A DNA stretch of 64,000 nucleotides from Verrucomicrobiota bacterium. Its GTDB lineage: Bacteria; Verrucomicrobiota; Verrucomicrobiia; Chthoniobacterales; Terrimicrobiaceae. Both the position numbers and the translations under genes were made by a program. The stretch lies in contig JAPLTF010000066.1 in the NCBI GenBank assembly GCA_026398275.1, positions 1 through 64,000 on the forward strand, given 5' to 3'. Below, in pieces: positions 12,966-58,901 of the stretch (position 1 is its first letter; each line of letters opens with the position of its first letter). The notes below the pieces were generated by a model that worked only from the letters and a program-made list of their open reading frames with translations, searched no databases and had not been told where the DNA came from.

Positions 12966-14309
12966 ATGCTGCGCTCGATGCTTTCCGAGAACCGCCGGAC
13001 GCTGTCCCTCGCGGTGCCGATCATCTCCGGCCACCTCGGGCAGATGCTGATGGGGCTGGTGGATTCGGTGCTGGTCGGCCGGGTCGGGGTGGTGCCGCTG
13101 GGGGCGTGCGGATTTGCGAACACCCTGCTCTCGGTGCCGCTGGTCCTCGGGTTCGGCGTTCTCTCCGCAGTCAGCGTCAGGGCGGCGCACTCGCATGGCG
13201 GCGGGCGTCCGCGCGAGGCGGGCGAGAGCGTGCGCGGGGGGCTGGCGGCGGCAACGATCCTCTCGGTTCCGGTGCTGGTGGCGCTCTACGCGCTTCTCCC
13301 GCACATCGGGATTTTCGGCCAGCCTCAGGCGGTGAACGACGCGGTCGGCGGGTATCTGATCATCTGCGGGTGGTCGATGGTCCCGGTCTTTTTTACCTGC
13401 GTGAGCAAAAATTTCTGCGAGGCCCTCGGGCGGCCGTGGGAGCCGTTCTGGATCATGCTGGGCGGCGTCCTGCTCAATGCGCTGCTCGCCTGGATCCTGA
13501 TCTTCGGAAAATGGGGGGCGCCGGCCATGGGGCTCGAGGGCGCGGGCTTGGCGACGCTGCTCGCGAGGATTGTGGTGATGGCGGCGATGTTCGCCTATCC
13601 GGCGCTCTCGCGTTCGCTGCGCGCGGCGTGGCCATCGGAATGGTTTGCGGGCGGGGCCGGCGCATCGCTCCGGAGGATTCTGGCGATCGGGCTGCCCGCC
13701 GGGGGGCTTCATCTTTGCGAGGTGAGCGGGTTTGCATTCGGCTCGATCATGATGGGATGGATCGGCGTGGTCCCGCTCGCGGCACACCAGATCGCGATGA
13801 CCTGCGCGGCCACGACATTCATGGTTCCGCTCGGGCTCTCGCAGGCGGTGTGCGTGAGGATCGGCCAGTCGAGAGGAGCCGGCAACACGGGCCGCCTCCG
13901 CGCGATCAGCTTCGGCGCGCTCGGGCTGGCGGTCGGGTTCATGGGGGTGTTTGTCGTGGTGTTCATGATGTTCGGAAGAGCGATCGCAGGGTGGTTTGTC
14001 GCGGATCCGCAGGTCGTGCTCCTGACCGCACAGCTGCTGCTGATCGCGGGGATTTTTCAGATTTTCGACGGCATCCAGGTGGTGTCCGTCGGAGCGCTGC
14101 GGGGATTTGAAGACACGCGGATGCCGATGTATATCGGGATCCTTTCCTACTGGCTCGTCGCGCTGCCGGTTTCCTGGCTCGCCGGATTCGTCCTCGGCTG
14201 GGGCGCCCGCGGCGTCTGGTTCGGCTTCGTCGTCGGGCTCGCTGTCGCAGCCGCCACGCTCCTCTCCCGGCTGATCTGGAAAATCGGGCGAACGGTGGAA
14301 CGGAGCTGA
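12966..14309 (+). CDS. MATE-family multidrug/Na+ antiporter
   Basis: The 447-residue membrane protein has about 12 hydrophobic segments in two similar halves. The first half opens with LAVPIISGHLGQMLMGLVDS and the second half with ILAIGLPAGGLHLCEVSGF. This is the duplicated layout of the MATE (multidrug and toxin extrusion) family, NorM-like branch. Such proteins export cationic drugs in exchange for Na+ or H+. The gene starts 24 bp after ymdB and is probably transcribed with it. A palindromic repeat element lies only 6 bp after its stop and may act as its terminator. Confidence 0.9.
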   Translation: MLRSMLSENRRTLSLAVPIISGHLGQMLMGLVDSVLVGRVGVVPLGACGFANTLLSVPLVLGFGVLSAVSVRAAHSHGGGRPREAGESVRGGLAAATILSVPVLVALYALLPHIGIFGQPQAVNDAVGGYLIICGWSMVPVFFTCVSKNFCEALGRPWEPFWIMLGGVLLNALLAWILIFGKWGAPAMGLEGAGLATLLARIVVMAAMFAYPALSRSLRAAWPSEWFAGGAGASLRRILAIGLPAGGLHLCEVSGFAFGSIMMGWIGVVPLAAHQIAMTCAATTFMVPLGLSQAVCVRIGQSRGAGNTGRLRAISFGALGLAVGFMGVFVVVFMMFGRAIAGWFVADPQVVLLTAQLLLIAGIFQIFDGIQVVSVGALRGFEDTRMPMYIGILSYWLVALPVSWLAGFVLGWGARGVWFGFVVGLAVAAATLLSRLIWKIGRTVERS

Positions 14310-14315
14310 TCTCAC

Positions 14316-14456
14316 GGCGTGTGATCAAGTGTGGATGCGGTTTCCTTGGTGTGCGAAAGGGGCGGACCTCCGGGCTGACCGTTCCCCACGCGGCGGGCCG
14401 GGGACGTCCCGCCCTACCGGGCATTGCTTCCAACCTCACCCGGTTTTGATCGCGCC
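14316..14456. repeat. Palindromic hairpin repeat, family 1, copy 1
   Basis: This element of about 141 bp begins GGCGTGTGATCAAGTGTGG and ends CACCCGGTTTTGATCGCGCC. The two ends are imperfect inverted repeats of each other, and the interior (GGGGCGGACCTCCGGGCTGA and GCCGGGGACGTCCCGCCCTA) can fold back as well. A second copy with better-preserved ends is at 47753-47901. It occupies nearly all of the gap between the MATE and phosphatase genes. It codes for nothing apparent. Confidence 0.7.
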
Positions 14457-14518
14457 CGATCCCACCAAGTGGGAAAAAATGGAGTTTTGGTTTTGAAAGT
14501 TGCCGCTAGTCTGGCCGG

Positions 14519-43930: not shown

Positions 43931-44569
43931 TCAACAGATTTTCCCGGCTGACGGGCAGATGTCCCGCAGTTCGCATCCCGGGCAATCCGGCTTTCGGGCC
44001 TGGCAGCGGCGGCGGCCGTGGAAGATGAGCCAGTGGCTGAGATCGGTCCATCGCTCGCGGGGAAATAGTTTGACCAGGTCCTGCTCGATGTGGACCGGAT
44101 CGCTGGATTTTGTGAGGCCGAGGCGGCGCGAGAGCCGGGTGACATGGGTGTCGACCACGATCCCCTCATTTTTCCCGAAGGCATTTCCGAGCACGACGTT
44201 GGCGGTCTTGCGGCCGACGCCGGGCAGGGCGGCGAGCCCCTCAAGCGATTCCGGGACCCTGCCGCCGTGCTTCGCGAGCAGCCCGGCTGCCATGTTGCGG
44301 ATGTTCTTCGCCTTGTTCCGGAAGAACCCCGTGGAGCGGACGATGGCCTCGAGCTCGGAAAGCGGGATCCCGGCGAAATCCTGCACGGACCGGCAGCGTT
44401 GGAACAGCTCGCCGGTCACGATGTTCACACGCTTGTCCGTGCATTGCGCGGACAGGATCGTGGCCACCAGCAGCTCCAGCGGGCTCGAGTAAACGAGCTC
44501 GCAATGGGCGTCGGGGTAGATCTCCGGAAGGCGGGCGAGCAGCTCCCCCGCCCGCTCCTTCCTGCTCAC
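43931..44569 (-). CDS. nth: Endonuclease III
   Basis: The 212-residue DNA glycosylase/AP-lyase repairs oxidised pyrimidines. It has SPLELLVATILSAQCTDKRV, the helix-hairpin-helix LAALPGVGRKTANVVLGNAF with the catalytic lysine (GRKTA) and Asp in IVVDTHVTRLSRRLG, and the 4Fe-4S cluster motif CQARKPDCPGCELRDIC (C-x6-C-x2-C-x5-C). Length is typical. Its start overlaps the end of the large TPR gene (ATGA), so it is transcribed from the same promoter. Confidence 0.95.
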   Translation of the reverse strand: MSRKERAGELLARLPEIYPDAHCELVYSSPLELLVATILSAQCTDKRVNIVTGELFQRCRSVQDFAGIPLSELEAIVRSTGFFRNKAKNIRNMAAGLLAKHGGRVPESLEGLAALPGVGRKTANVVLGNAFGKNEGIVVDTHVTRLSRRLGLTKSSDPVHIEQDLVKLFPRERWTDLSHWLIFHGRRRCQARKPDCPGCELRDICPSAGKIC

Positions 44570-47500
44570 TTCACGCCCAGCGCCGCCAGCCTCTCCTTGG
44601 CTTTGGGAGCATACGGGCTGTCGGGGAAGTCTTTGACGAGCTGCGCGTAGAATGCCTTGGCACGGTCCAGCTGCTGAGCCTTGAATTTTGCATCCGCGCT
44701 GGCATTCGCCTGCTCTTCCAGCAGCTGGCTGGCCTGCCAGAGCCCTTCGGTTGCGGCCAGCGGAACTCCGGAAAACAGCTGGGCGATCTTCGCAAAGAAG
44801 TCGATCGCCTGGCCCCGGTATTCGGCCTTTTTCTTGGGATCCGTCTCGGCATCCGACTTCTGCTTCATGATCGCGCCAGCGAGAAGGAAGGCCTTCGCGC
44901 GAAGATCCGCACTGCCGTTCTGCGACCGGATGATTGTCGGAAGGAGCAGGAGCGCATCATCCAGTTTGCCCTCGGCGCGCAGAGACTCCGCGATCCCATA
45001 GTCTGCCTCGAGGGCCTTCGGCGACCACGGATACAGCGCCTTGAGCTGCTTGAAGAGCGTGCCCGCCTCCGCGGTCTGCTTGCTCTCCTGCGCCACCCGG
45101 CCGAGTCCGAAAATCGAAATGGCCTGGGCCTCCTGGATGGTTGGAGGCGCCGTGGTGGCGGTCGTTCCCACCGGATTGGGGAAATCCGCCGCAAGCTTCT
45201 TGAAGACGGCTGTCGCCTGGTCGGGCTTCTTGTCGTCCACGAGAGCCAGCCCGTAAATATCGAGGTCCTTGGCTGAATAGATCACAGCGGGATCGTAGGC
45301 CTCGTTCATCTTCGCCAGCGCCCGCGCCTTGTCCTTCGCGGAGAGGAATCCCGCAAGGGTGAACAGAATTTTGCTCCTGGCCCCGGCATCCGGCGACTTC
45401 TCCGCGAGCTGCTGGAAATACTCCTCGACCTGGGCGTTCGTCTTCAGCTCTGCCCGCAGGAGCATGCGCTGGGCCTCCAGGAGCGATTGCAGGCCGAGGG
45501 CAAGATCCGGGCTGGTCGGGTATTTGGCCAGCATCTCCTCGGCGGTCGCCACCGAGGCCTGGACCGCCTCCTTCCACTTGGCCTGGTCCGCTTCGTTGAG
45601 CGACGAGTAGTTCGCCGCAAGCCGCTCGGCGGTTCCGCGCTGAAGATCCGCAACCTTGCAGAGCGCCTCGGCGGCCTTCGGATGCTCGGAATACCGCTGC
45701 GCGAACTCGGTGTAGGTGGCGGCCGCCTCGTCCGGCTTGGACGCCGCGATGGCGTTCTGCCCGATCGAATCGTAGGCGAAGTAGATCCGCTCGTCCCGGG
45801 GATACTTCTCGATGAACTGCCGCATCAGCTTGTTGAATTCGGCGGTGTTCTGCGCTGCCGCAGCAAGCTGGGCGCGCAGGAAATACGTGTAGGGCGCGGC
45901 CTGGCTGTCGGGATATTTTTCGGCCAGCATCGCGAGCGTGGCCCCGCCCTCGTCCTTTTTTCCGAGCGCGATCTGCGCGCCGCCGAGAGCGTAGGTCGCA
46001 AGCGGGATGAGCGGATGCTTGTCATTCGCCTTGATGAAGGCATCCAGCTGGGTGGCGGCCCCTGCGTTGTCGCCCTTCTGCTGGGTGGCGATGGCGACCC
46101 AGTAGTCCGACTCGACCGCCTGCGGGGTGCCGGGGAACTTGTCCTTCACGATCTTATAGGCGGCGATGGCATCGTCCCATTTCCCGGTGTCCTTGTTGAT
46201 GCCCGCCAGCCCGTATTGGGCGATGACCGCCACATCGGGAGCCGGATTGCTGGCGAGGTAGGTCTGGAAGGTTTTCAGCGCCTCCTCGTAATTTTTCAAG
46301 CCGGCCTGGGCCTGGGCCTTGCTGACGACCGAATGCCCGATCACCCGGCCTTTCGGATACAGTGAAAGGGACTCGTCAAAATACTTGATCGCATCGGTCG
46401 GCTTGCCGAGTCCGAGATACATGTTGCCCATGGCAAACGGCAGGCTCTCCGCGATGGGCTTGCTTTTGTAGGCCGCCGAAAAATCCTGGTAGCCCTGGAC
46501 CGCCTTGTCCACGGCGCTCTGGATGACGTATCCCATGGTCTTGTAGTAGAGCGAGCGCATCTTCTCGTCGTCCGTGGTCAGGAACGGCGTCACGTGGGTG
46601 ATGAGCACGCGCGACTCGTTGTATTTCTTCGCGTTGAAATAAATTTCGCCCATCTTGAGCATCGCGGTCGCGATCTGATCCGGCTTGGCGTTGACCTCCG
46701 CGAGCTTTTTGAGCTCCCGCTCGTTGTCCTTGTCGAGCTGCTTCTTCAATGCCGGATTGTTCGCGCGCAGTGCGGCGGCCTTCAGCGAGGGGAAGGCTTT
46801 GATTTTTTCCTGTTGGAGCTGGATGATCTCCTCCTTCGGAAGGACCGACTGGTAAGCGTCAAGCGCCTTCTGGTAGATCGGGGGCTGGTCGGCCTCCGGG
46901 CTGAACGCCGCCATCGTGAACAGGATCTCGCCGATCTGGAAGTAGGCGTCGTTGATGAGCGCAACGTCCTTTTTCTCCGCGACGATCTGCCGGAGGATGT
47001 CCTCGGCCTGCTTGAGCTGCGACATCCCTTTGGCCTTGTCGCCGCCATCCTTCATCAGGTCGCCGCTCCCGATTGTGGCAAGCGCGAGCGAGAGGATGTT
47101 CTTGCTGGCCGGCAGGGTCCCGCTGTTGGGAAATTTTTGGATGTTCGACTGCATGTCCTCGACGACCTTGTCGAAATTCCCGATCTGAAAGTTCGCGACC
47201 CCCCGCCCGTAGGTGGCGGATTCGACTTCCGGGGACTGCGGATATTTCGTGATGAAATCCGTGAACTTGGCGATGGCGTCCTCAAACGCCTGCTTGCGCT
47301 TGGGATCGGTCGCGGGGAGGGCGGACGCCTTCGAGGAGAGGATCTGCGGCAGGAAGCTGCTCGCAACCTGGGCGAGTTCGGGTGCCAGCCCGGGAAATGA
47401 CGTCGCCTTCGTCAGGGTCGTCTGCGCGAGGTCATACTGGCCGAGAAAATACTGAGAAAATGCGAGCTGGATCGTGGCGACCATGGCGACCGGATCCGTC

Positions 47501-47679
47501 GGGTAGTCCTTGAGAACCTTTTCATACGCTGCTGCGGCCCCGGCGTAGTCGCCGGCCGAGAAGAGGTTGTAGGCGGCCTCATTTGCCGCAGCCGCGCCCG
47601 TGGACTGGGCGCTGAGCGGGTGCGAAAAAAGGACTGCGGTCAGTAGGACGATGGCGAGACGGACGGGGAGCGCTTTCAT
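44566..47679 (-). CDS. Large secreted TPR-repeat protein
   Basis: The product of about 1,037 residues has a signal peptide (MKALPVRLAIVLLTAVLFSH, about 25 residues to LSAQ). The rest is a run of tetratricopeptide-like repeats, such as AAYNLFSAGDYAGAAAAYEK, IYQKALDAYQSVLPKEEI, AIKYFDESLSLYPKG and SDQ-AAPYTYFLRAQLAAAA, giving roughly 20 or more repeats. It is probably a scaffold in the periplasm or outer membrane. ATGs at 47694 and 47748 are alternative starts. nth follows, with ATGA overlap. It shares the TPR character of the BamD-like protein at 55 kb, and the two could be in the same envelope pathway. Confidence 0.8.
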   Translation of the reverse strand: MKALPVRLAIVLLTAVLFSHPLSAQSTGAAAANEAAYNLFSAGDYAGAAAAYEKVLKDYPTDPVAMVATIQLAFSQYFLGQYDLAQTTLTKATSFPGLAPELAQVASSFLPQILSSKASALPATDPKRKQAFEDAIAKFTDFITKYPQSPEVESATYGRGVANFQIGNFDKVVEDMQSNIQKFPNSGTLPASKNILSLALATIGSGDLMKDGGDKAKGMSQLKQAEDILRQIVAEKKDVALINDAYFQIGEILFTMAAFSPEADQPPIYQKALDAYQSVLPKEEIIQLQQEKIKAFPSLKAAALRANNPALKKQLDKDNERELKKLAEVNAKPDQIATAMLKMGEIYFNAKKYNESRVLITHVTPFLTTDDEKMRSLYYKTMGYVIQSAVDKAVQGYQDFSAAYKSKPIAESLPFAMGNMYLGLGKPTDAIKYFDESLSLYPKGRVIGHSVVSKAQAQAGLKNYEEALKTFQTYLASNPAPDVAVIAQYGLAGINKDTGKWDDAIAAYKIVKDKFPGTPQAVESDYWVAIATQQKGDNAGAATQLDAFIKANDKHPLIPLATYALGGAQIALGKKDEGGATLAMLAEKYPDSQAAPYTYFLRAQLAAAAQNTAEFNKLMRQFIEKYPRDERIYFAYDSIGQNAIAASKPDEAAATYTEFAQRYSEHPKAAEALCKVADLQRGTAERLAANYSSLNEADQAKWKEAVQASVATAEEMLAKYPTSPDLALGLQSLLEAQRMLLRAELKTNAQVEEYFQQLAEKSPDAGARSKILFTLAGFLSAKDKARALAKMNEAYDPAVIYSAKDLDIYGLALVDDKKPDQATAVFKKLAADFPNPVGTTATTAPPTIQEAQAISIFGLGRVAQESKQTAEAGTLFKQLKALYPWSPKALEADYGIAESLRAEGKLDDALLLLPTIIRSQNGSADLRAKAFLLAGAIMKQKSDAETDPKKKAEYRGQAIDFFAKIAQLFSGVPLAATEGLWQASQLLEEQANASADAKFKAQQLDRAKAFYAQLVKDFPDSPYAPKAKERLAALGVK

Positions 47680-47752
47680 GAGAGAAGCAGCCATTCTATA
47701 GATGACGGGCCGATGTTTCCATCGCAAAATTGCAGCGGGGCCCTGCATCGAA

Positions 47753-47901
47753 GGGTGTGATCAAAAGTGGGGGCGGTTCCAGAGAGCGATGGTAGGGGCG
47801 GGCCTCTGGACCGACCGCCTCTTCAAACCGCGCCTCGGCCGGCCCGGAGGTCCAGCCCTACCAATTCTTGCATCCAACCTCACCCACTTTTAATCACACC
47901 C
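47753..47901. repeat. Palindromic hairpin repeat, family 1, copy 2
   Basis: The 149-bp element has 19-bp terminal inverted repeats, GGGTGTGATCAAAAGTGGG (47753-47771) and CCCACTTTTAATCACACCC (47883-47901), with one mismatch. Inside, GGTAGGGGCGGGCCTCTGGA and GGCCGGCCCGGAGGTCCAGC are also imperfect inverted repeats, so the whole element can fold into a long hairpin. It matches copy 1 at 14316-14456 in end and core sequence. There is no open frame. It sits between the convergent ends of nothing: it separates the upstream region of the TPR gene from the end of the aminotransferase gene. Confidence 0.85.
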
Positions 47902-47921
47902 GCCATCGAAGCCGGGACGGA

Positions 47922-49079
47922 TTACGCAATCGCGGCGCGCAGAACCCCGGCCACGCGGCCCATCTCTTCGAGGGAATTGTAGAAGTGCGGACTGAACCGG
48001 ATCCACCGGGAACCGTCTCGGAGCGATCTCAGCGAGGCGATGATCCCGGCCTCCTCCAGCTTGGCAAAGAGGGCGGCGGAATCCTTCGCAGGGTGCCGGC
48101 ACGTCAGGATGCCGGATCTCAGCGGTTCGGTTTCGCCGGGGGAGAGGAACTCAAATCCCATCTCCCGCAAATCCCCCTGCAGCGCGTCGCGCACCTGGAG
48201 GATCGACAGCCGGACATTGCCCAGGCCGGCGGCGACGAGCATTTCGAGCGACGCCTTCATCCCATACATCCCCGCGATATTCAGGACCCCAGGCTCATAT
48301 CTCCTGGCGGTTTCCTCGAAAATAATTTCCTCCTGCGCCACAAATTCCGGCGAGCGGACATTCCACGCGCCCAGCAGCGTCGGTCGGCAGCGCTCGAAAT
48401 TGCGCTTGGCCACATAGACGATCCCGATCGCGAGCGGCCCGAGCATCCACTTGTGCGCATCCGCGCTGAGGAAGTCCACGTTCTCGACGCTGAACGGCCC
48501 CGCCCCGACGGTCTGGATCGCGTCCACAGAAAACAATATCCCGCGCGAGTGAAGCAGTCGGCCGATCGCGTCCACATCGATCCGCCATCCGCTCAGGAAA
48601 TGGGCCGACGCCAGCGCGACCAGCTTGGTCCGGCCGGTCAGCGCAGCCGCCACCACATCGGGCGTGATCCTGCCCGGGGACTCGGGCCGCACATGCCGGA
48701 TCACCACCCCGCGCGAGGCGAGCGCGGCCCAGGGGTAGACGTTGGACGGATAGTCGTCCGCGTAGCAGACGAGCTCGTCTCCGGGCTTCCAATCCAGGCC
48801 GTTGGCAAAAAGGCTCAGCCCCAGCGAGGTCGGGCCGAGCAGCGCAATCTCGTCCGCATGGGCCCCGATCGCCTTGGCGCAGACTCCGCGCGTGCGCGCC
48901 ACATCCTTCAAAACATCGCCGAATTCCTGGTGGTGCAGGCAGGCCGCCTCGACATGGTTCCGCATCGCATCGGCCGCGCACCGCGGCAGGATCGTGACGC
49001 CCGCGTGGGCGAGGAAAATCCGCTCGCGGGCGACCGGAAACGCTTCCAGCCTCAACTTCTCGTCCGTGAACCAGCTCAC
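47922..49079 (-). CDS. Class V aminotransferase (cysteine desulfurase-like)
   Basis: The 385-residue PLP enzyme has the class V fold. FLAHAGVTILPRCAADAMRN lies near the N-terminus, LFSVDAIQTVGAGPF gives the PLP-binding Asp, and DFLSADAHKWMLGPLAIGIV contains the Schiff-base lysine (about 215). The active-site Cys loop of cysteine desulfurases is not obvious, so selenocysteine lyase, kynureninase-like or other activities are possible. GTG at 49079 overlaps the stop of the upstream RelE-like gene (GTGA), so the pair is coupled. Confidence 0.8.
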   Translation of the reverse strand: MSWFTDEKLRLEAFPVARERIFLAHAGVTILPRCAADAMRNHVEAACLHHQEFGDVLKDVARTRGVCAKAIGAHADEIALLGPTSLGLSLFANGLDWKPGDELVCYADDYPSNVYPWAALASRGVVIRHVRPESPGRITPDVVAAALTGRTKLVALASAHFLSGWRIDVDAIGRLLHSRGILFSVDAIQTVGAGPFSVENVDFLSADAHKWMLGPLAIGIVYVAKRNFERCRPTLLGAWNVRSPEFVAQEEIIFEETARRYEPGVLNIAGMYGMKASLEMLVAAGLGNVRLSILQVRDALQGDLREMGFEFLSPGETEPLRSGILTCRHPAKDSAALFAKLEEAGIIASLRSLRDGSRWIRFSPHFYNSLEEMGRVAGVLRAAIA

Positions 49080-49438
49080 TTCCGGGACTCCTCGGCCTCG
49101 TGGATCAGCGTCCAGAAATCCTTTGTTCCCGCCAGCCCGCCGTCCTCGTCGTCGAGCGGAAGGTTCGATCGGAACAGAAAATCGCGGATCGTGTTTTTGT
49201 GGAGGACCCGGTGGATGAGCAGCCCTTCGGGATGGCGCTCAAAATAGATCCGGTAATCCTTGGCCCGGTAGCGGTGGAGCGTCCGCCCCTCGCGCGTGAC
49301 ATGCCCGAAGCCCTCCATGTCGAGCGAACCGAGGTCCTCGGGCAAAAAGTGGAACTCCGAGAGCAAGTCAAGCTGGAGATCTTTCGGCAGCGCGGCCATC
49401 TCGGCGGCGCTGATTTTGTTGAAGATGACCTGGAACAC
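49076..49438 (-). CDS. RelE/ParE-fold toxin-like protein without visible antitoxin
   Basis: The 120-residue protein has a RelE-type core: VIFNKISAAEMAALPKDLQL, HRYRAKDYRIYFERHPEGLL and HRVLHKNTIRDFLFRSNLPL, with the basic and aromatic residues of mRNA-cutting toxins in part (R, Y, H). No antitoxin gene is found directly upstream; the next gene is the divergent peroxiredoxin. It is coupled to the class V aminotransferase gene downstream. It may be an orphan or a housekeeping variant of the fold. Confidence 0.6.
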   Translation of the reverse strand: MFQVIFNKISAAEMAALPKDLQLDLLSEFHFLPEDLGSLDMEGFGHVTREGRTLHRYRAKDYRIYFERHPEGLLIHRVLHKNTIRDFLFRSNLPLDDEDGGLAGTKDFWTLIHEAEESRK

Positions 49439-58809: not shown

Positions 58810-58901
58810 TGGCGGAAGGGGTGGGATTCGAACCCACGGTGGGTTTAACCCCACGCTCGATTTCGAGTCGAGTGCCTTCAACCGGACTCAGCCACCCTTC
58901 C
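58810..58901 (-). tRNA. tRNA-Ser (anticodon CGA)
   Basis: The minus-strand sequence folds into a class II tRNA: acceptor GGAAGGG/CCCTTCC with discriminator G and an encoded CCA (plus strand TGG at 58810-58812). The anticodon arm ACTCGA-CTCGAAA-TCGAG has anticodon CGA, followed by a long variable arm (GTGGGGTTAAACCCAC) as expected for serine, and the T-arm GTGGG-TTCGAAT-CCCAC. It decodes UCG codons. This is the only complete tRNA gene seen in the window. Confidence 0.95.

Follow-up and report, generated by a model that had tools for sequence, protein, structure and literature searches.

Eukaryotic Pack-MULEs carry Mutator-like ends and 9-bp target duplications around unrelated interiors. The p-MULT elements are bounded by ends of 18-39 bp and flanked by repeats of 8 or 9 bp and, in the ISMich2 group (p-MULT 4), contain two ORFs arranged with a -1 frameshift, as set out in the portions of the report drawn upon here (PMC3942029, Guerillot et al. 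2014). MITEAba12, in the excerpts of its description, is a non-coding, AT-rich element of 113 bp with an 81-bp core and a co-resident IS (PMC6382973). A further system of relevance is a REP superfamily with a GTAG/CTAC tag, which is found in the PVC superphylum and is abundant in O. terrae according to the cited portions of PMC3733652. No description of a MITE tied to ISKra4 or ISMich2 was found in open-licence literature, and the portions of that literature consulted held nothing of the kind on REPs inside MITEs, on Pack-MULE-like bacterial IS, or on MITEs of Verrucomicrobia.

The locus compared here with these systems lies in a window, by which we mean the whole 64-kb stretch of DNA that was analyzed, from a genome (G000) of 4.66 Mb in 117 contigs, with completeness 98.7 and contamination 3.8. 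At 47753-47901 this window contains a 149-bp hairpin with 19-bp inverted ends, the left copy being GGGTGTGATCAAAAGTGGG (47753-47771, +) and the right copy its inverse with one mismatch (47883-47901, -). At up to 3 mismatches this sequence matches the window only at these two ends, where 0.02 matches would be expected by chance. The RNA fold predicted for 47745-47910 reaches -84.2 kcal/mol (z -6.2), and none of 200 shuffles was equally good. Within the element, the interior also folds back, through a REP-a palindrome with a CCCTAC/GTAG end at 47791-47815 (-; 1 mismatch to the REP-a pattern) and a second, REP-a-like palindrome in inverted orientation at 47838-47862 (+; 2 mismatches). The only ORF of at least 80 aa that touches the element (47868-49247, +) is antisense to a neighboring aminotransferase gene and is not counted as a gene, leaving the element with no ORF of its own. 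The neighbors are co-directional genes for a TPR protein (44566-47679, -) and a class-V aminotransferase (47922-49079, -), and directly outside the ends lie the two copies of a decayed 9-bp target duplication, TGCATCGAA (47744-47752, +) and GCCATCGAA (47902-47910, +), which agree at 7/9 positions. Some ISKra4-group elements have been described as inserting 13-17 bp upstream of promoters; the single promoter-like site near 47753-47901 starts 32 bp from the edge of the element, so that this spacing was not seen there.

A second member of the family, 141 bp in length and about 70% identical to the first, occupies positions 14317-14457 of the window, between a MatE gene (end 14309) and an ORF (start 14519). 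Its interior combines REP-a with another palindrome, REP-b, and its flanks hold a decayed duplication of their own, GATCTCACG (14308-14316, +) and GATCCCACC (14458-14466, +), again matching at 7/9. The one-mismatch ends, the folding interior, the 149-bp size with no ORF and the relationship to this 14-kb copy had all been described in an earlier sequence-only reading of the DNA, and each of these descriptions was borne out.

The genome-wide search proposed in that reading returned 60 DNA matches in G000. The end motif, at up to 3 mismatches, occurs there 45 times in forward and 44 times in reverse orientation, against 3 and 1 occurrences of a reversed control pattern, and its occurrences form at least 36 paired elements, including the window copy, 35 of which span 114-213 bp. 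This number is a lower bound, as some single ends at 3 mismatches were left out. Overlapping alternatives, 19 of 66 raw end pairs, were removed; one pair that is probably spurious (L032, 301 bp, duplication 5/9) and one that is mis-registered at its left end (L042, 1/9) stay in the counts. The closest relative of the window copy, at C116:113581, is 92% identical to it, and the remaining near-full-length matches in G000 show only 69-76% identity, so that most copies in this genome look old. Outlying forms were also noted. The shortest element (L082:1687-1744, in G005) is 58 bp long, with two ends and about 16 bp between them, and has no duplication. Beyond two single-ended copies (L068 and L094, at contig ends of G000 C69 and C60), the sequence is the same in both until the contigs stop. 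In the record JAIFLJ01 (bin_182), among loci L099-L190, many contigs stop about 40-130 bp from an end motif, a pattern suggestive of assembly breaks at a related high-copy element.

Inspection of the flanks for target duplications, which had also been suggested, revealed a strong signal at a length of 9 bp. At this length, 203 of 324 flanking positions match across the G000 pairs, against 88.9 when flanks are permuted (sd 8.9, maximum 116, 2000 permutations), and 14 of the 36 copies have duplications matching at 8-9/9, where 0.39 are expected (permutation maximum 4); seven copies reach 9/9. Lengths of 5, 6, 7, 11 and 12 are at background, and lengths of 8 and 10 show a weaker excess. The other 22 copies, including both in the window at 7/9, fall below 8/9. 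By eye, the repeat is displaced by one base in several G000 copies, and the shortfall is in some cases such a boundary shift and in others decay or false pairing. Eleven pairs from G001, G005, G010 and G038 (5 at 9/9 and 6 at 2-4/9) bring the totals, G000 included, to 267/423 positions and 19/47 copies at 8-9/9. Among 16 pairs from GTDB contigs, 9 stand at 8-9/9 and 7 (L104, L110, L121, L127, L143, L150, L175) at 1-3/9.

A congener, G001, offers a view of the corresponding site without the insert. The class-V aminotransferase neighbor is 80% identical in that genome and adjoins the same TPR gene there. At this one site compared, the orthologous gap measures 90 bp in G001 versus 242 bp in G000, on the assumption that the TPR gene starts at 47679, a start preferred over that of a longer ORF at 47748. 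The element plus one duplication accounts for 158 bp, and 242 minus 158 leaves 84. No end motif was seen in the 90-bp gap of G001, over which the alignment is patchy. The empty gap implies either that the insertion took place in the G000 lineage after the two had split, or that it was precisely lost in G001.

Beyond these genomes, a search of GTDB genome contigs for the pattern GGTGTGATYAAAAGTGGGTGAG found 93 stretches carrying it, all of them from MAGs, which are verrucomicrobial wherever a group is named and otherwise labelled only "bacterium"; an order-level search with a similar end pattern, at up to 1 mismatch, found it in 5 of 213 genomes. The suggestion that insertion sequences with these ends be sought was rewarded along two independent routes, and the terminal repeats of the window element are common to both of the IS elements recovered. 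The first, L133, was found through its ends, which lie 1.4 kb apart, fit the 22-bp pattern exactly and are flanked by a duplication at 8/9; its reverse strand encodes an ISKra4-type transposase in broken frames (NF033572, 2e-20 and 2.6e-26). The second, L212 (1.4 kb), was found through its transposase family, has one mismatch to the 22-bp pattern at each end, and is bordered by a perfect 9-bp duplication, TTGGAAATG. Both come from families of Verrucomicrobiota other than that of G000. A more distant IS of 1443 bp, L208:1132-2574 (in G239), has perfect 20-bp ends of related sequence, a perfect 9-bp duplication (CTCACGCGG) and an A8 run at its ORF overlap. A second NF033572 match in G239, at C23, was recorded in addition to L208.

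The transposases of these partner elements resemble one another to differing degrees, L212 being 62% and 80% identical to the two L133 pieces and 45% identical to L208. NF033572 is their best NCBIfam match, with best E-values from 6e-60 to 2e-20. In the class-level search with this family, 63 of 384 genomes match and 16 exceed the curated cut-off of 205 bits. None of L133, L212 and L208 attains that value: the genome search scored L212 at 185.9 and L208 at 203.7, and orfB alone gave 178.1 and 187.3, respectively; the L133 pieces scored 73.3 and 92.7. As judged from the E-values, the three transposases are homologous to NF033572, yet are not curated members. The Pfam family UPF0236 is matched weakly, over its cut-off, by L212 and L208; L133, searched with stops as X, has no Pfam match, and its family is named by NCBIfam. 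In L133, L208 and a relative on a plasmid of Opitutaceae TAV5, orfB lies in the -1 frame relative to orfA, with the overlap at a run of A8 or A9; the terminal ends of the TAV5 relative were not found by the GGG-to-CCC test. L212 has the A9 run and orfB, but its orfA frame stops just before the run and may be damaged.

Thirty ISKra4-family loci (L192-L221) were checked for the ends. L212 has them at no more than 1 mismatch on both sides, L208 has related ends at 6, and L215 has one end at 6 mismatches and then reaches the end of its contig; the end pair is absent from the other 27, several of which sit at contig ends, where an end may be missing. A phylum-level search added L229, with related ends at 5 mismatches each and no duplication by eye. 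Across the 26 family genomes searched, G000 among them, no L212-like transposase was found, and the best transposase matches, from 3 of the 26, reach 24-31% identity. Likewise, no transposase was seen by eye in the 150 bases behind single-ended places (mostly in G001, G005, G010 and G038), nor in the two longest open frames per end at single-ended GTDB loci, except for the L133 pair. Multicopy IS are often lost from metagenome assemblies, and the missing transposase in the family genomes is therefore weak counter-evidence. The only ISKra4-type transposase remnant in G000 covers 41 positions (L191:1501-1623, corresponding to G000:C97:18671-18793). It was rejected as the partner IS, as its flanks, examined for 1.5 kb each way, lack these ends (the closest match has 7 mismatches).

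Overall, the ends shared with IS elements, the 9-bp duplications, the dispersed copies and the absence from the orthologous site of the congener make the assignment of the 149-bp element, on sequence grounds, as a MITE with ISKra4/ISMich2-like ends a well-supported one. The sequence-only reading had likened the element to a MITE or to a REP/BIME-type repeat; the first likeness applies to the whole and the second to the core, in that the element is by its sequence a MITE outside and BIME-like inside, with an interior in which two GTAG-type REP-like palindromes lie in opposite orientations. From the shared ends and the duplication length, the hairpin is best read as mobilized in trans by a transposase of this kind. 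We consider it very probable that the element is a non-autonomous insertion whose ends are cut by an ISKra4-type (ISMich2-like) DDE transposase supplied from elsewhere. The ends of about 22 bp would then represent putative binding and cutting sites of this prokaryotic Mutator-like enzyme, insertion would duplicate 9 bp of the target, and the interior would be free to vary, because only the ends would be needed. The likeliest order of events would begin with an IS and proceed to an internally deleted short element, which a REP pair would enter before amplification by the DDE transposase. This order, with REP entry preceding amplification, is suggested by an alignment of the 29 REP-bearing copies described below, in which each outer arm is always found on one and the same side of the REPs. 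Lying between co-directional genes, the hairpin is presumably transcribed and may affect their mRNA.

The composition of the interiors bears directly on how such elements might diversify. The REP-a pattern has 48 sites in G000 at up to 3 mismatches, against 0 for its reversed control, and it occurs (at up to 2 mismatches) in the interior of 29 of the 36 copies, that of the window included. REP-b, at up to 4 mismatches, stands beside REP-a in 24 of these 29; in the window copy, as in the 92%-identical element at C116, both halves of the interior are REP-a-like. A different palindrome, REP-C, is carried in the interior of 3 of the 36 copies, and 4 of the 36 have neither type. REP-a, like REP-b, ends in GTAG/CTAC, the tag of the REP superfamily introduced at the outset. 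The same GTAG-REP module is present in G000 also as a free unit or between other terminal repeats, one alternative context having ends near GGTGCATAACGCGAAAGTTACC (10 motif matches, control 0). Five loci, L265, L268, L054, L266 and L269 (G000 C1, C86, C86, C32 and C96, respectively), represent this second MITE-like type, with GGTGCATAACGCGAAAGTTACC-like ends and a GTAG-REP interior; at L268 a direct repeat, ATTCGTGAGG, is visible by eye on both sides. In a third context, observed at L022, L056, L057 and L271 (G000 C68, C50, C80 and C117, respectively), the two REPs appear in the opposite order, and the ends, where seen (L271), are near TGATACCA.

When 62 interiors were grouped on their BLASTN matches (E 1e-4), 14 clusters resulted, of which 7 hold at least one copy with a duplication at 8-9/9: GTAG-REP, REP-C, L098, L027 (which groups with L041 through a weak link), L085/L086, L049 and L162. 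Seven interiors whose mutual similarity is undetectable by sequence comparison thus stand between the same ends with duplications. Strong palindromes (z of -3.5 or below) represent 5 of these 7 clusters. Such diversity could have arisen through REP insertion, repeat recombination or filler capture. Filler capture, a proposal that concerns the interior only, holds that the diverse cores were taken up as filler during transposition, in the manner of Pack-MULEs, and not through REPIN entry or repeat recombination; it accords with the Mutator-like affiliation of the transposase group in the cited portions of PMC3942029, and with the finding that the 14 clusters, seven with a copy at 8-9/9, include cores that are not strongly palindromic (L162 and L027 among them). 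Weighing against it, strong palindromes characterize 7 of the 14 cluster representatives, REP-type cores make up the two largest clusters, and a search of part of the G000 DNA revealed no donor from which a core had been captured. We therefore regard filler capture as possible, if rather unlikely; the strong palindromes and the REP identity of the largest clusters favor REP insertion or repeat recombination for the REP-type cores.

The same REP content raises the question of whether the whole unit might be a REPIN or BIME mobilized by a Y1 tyrosine transposase (RAYT), its outer arms being longer flanks. The inverted REP pair with GTAG ends in the interior of the element would suit that explanation, as would the presence in G000 of 9 Y1_Tnp matches, 2 of which are flanked on both sides by REP-C, a type found inside three copies of the element. 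These two loci, L258 (G000:C51 near 29291) and L260 (G000:C31 near 24566), encode RAYT-like Y1_Tnp proteins; REP-C itself is not matched anywhere in the 64 kb of the window. However, the 9-bp duplications directly outside the outer ends contradict RAYT movement of the whole unit, and the same outer ends surround interiors with no detectable similarity to these GTAG REPs as well as IS elements with ISKra4-type transposases. The occurrence of GTAG REPs in free form or between other terminal repeats also argues against it, as does the absence of REP-a and REP-b from the flanks of all 9 Y1_Tnp loci (0.3-1.5 kb per side examined). RAYT movement of the entire element thus appears highly improbable, and mobilization of a MITE by an ISKra4-type transposase remains the preferred explanation.

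The very stable fold and the intergenic position between co-directional genes might suggest a conserved RNA structure at related loci, such as an attenuator, riboswitch, sRNA or terminator. This is highly improbable, given that Rfam at gathering thresholds matches only a tRNA (58813-58901) in the whole window and nothing over the 149-bp element, that no terminator-like site occurs in 47600-48000, that target duplications are evident at the group level, and that the orthologous gap in G001 lacks the element. Two specific candidates were rejected for the locus itself: a riboswitch or sRNA, for want of an Rfam match at the gathering threshold, and an intrinsic terminator, none being detected in that interval. 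The sequence-only reading had held that the idea of a mobile repeat would fall if the element belonged to a described family of riboswitches, sRNAs or attenuators, and this was not the outcome.

From a broader perspective, bacterial Mutator-like ends of the ISKra4/ISMich2 type might constitute a reusable cassette into which unrelated host repeats, most of all RAYT-type REP palindromes, are repeatedly drawn, and which disperses them with 9-bp duplications. Such a cassette would parallel Pack-MULEs in a prokaryote, with a DDE transposase disseminating repeats that belong to a tyrosine-transposase system. We advance this notion tentatively and with more doubt than conviction. The analysis assigns a target-duplication length to a Verrucomicrobiota repeat family and points to its likely partner transposon. 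If the cores have truly been exchanged, two transposition systems with no relation to each other meet in a single element, and the origin of MITE interiors becomes testable in a bacterium.

In relation to the ISKra4 family and its ISMich2 group, as treated in the cited portions of PMC3942029, the partner IS elements share the 9-bp duplications, an NF033572-homologous transposase and the -1 frameshift layout at an A run. The element described here differs from ISMich2 in being 149 bp long and gene-free, and the partner IS elements, which lie below the NF033572 cut-off, are likened to ISMich2 by description. With Pack-MULEs, the family has in common Mutator-like ends and 9-bp duplications around unrelated interiors (PMC3942029, in part); unlike them, many of its interiors are repeat palindromes and not gene fragments, and no capture event was observed. 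The resemblance to MITEAba12, judged from excerpts of its description (PMC6382973), lies in imperfect ends shared with an IS, in 9-bp duplications, and in IS identity confined to the ends; in contrast to that element, the cores in G000 are mostly GC-rich REP pairs, the remaining cores bear no relation to these, and the IS was not seen in the genome. Finally, the interior recalls GTAG-REPs, REPINs and BIMEs, as outlined in the cited portions of PMC3733652, in having two inverted palindromes with GTAG at one end, and REP-C flanks two Y1_Tnp genes; in distinction from REPINs and BIMEs, the REP pair in this element is enclosed within DDE-type ends, and belongs to a family that carries 9-bp duplications.
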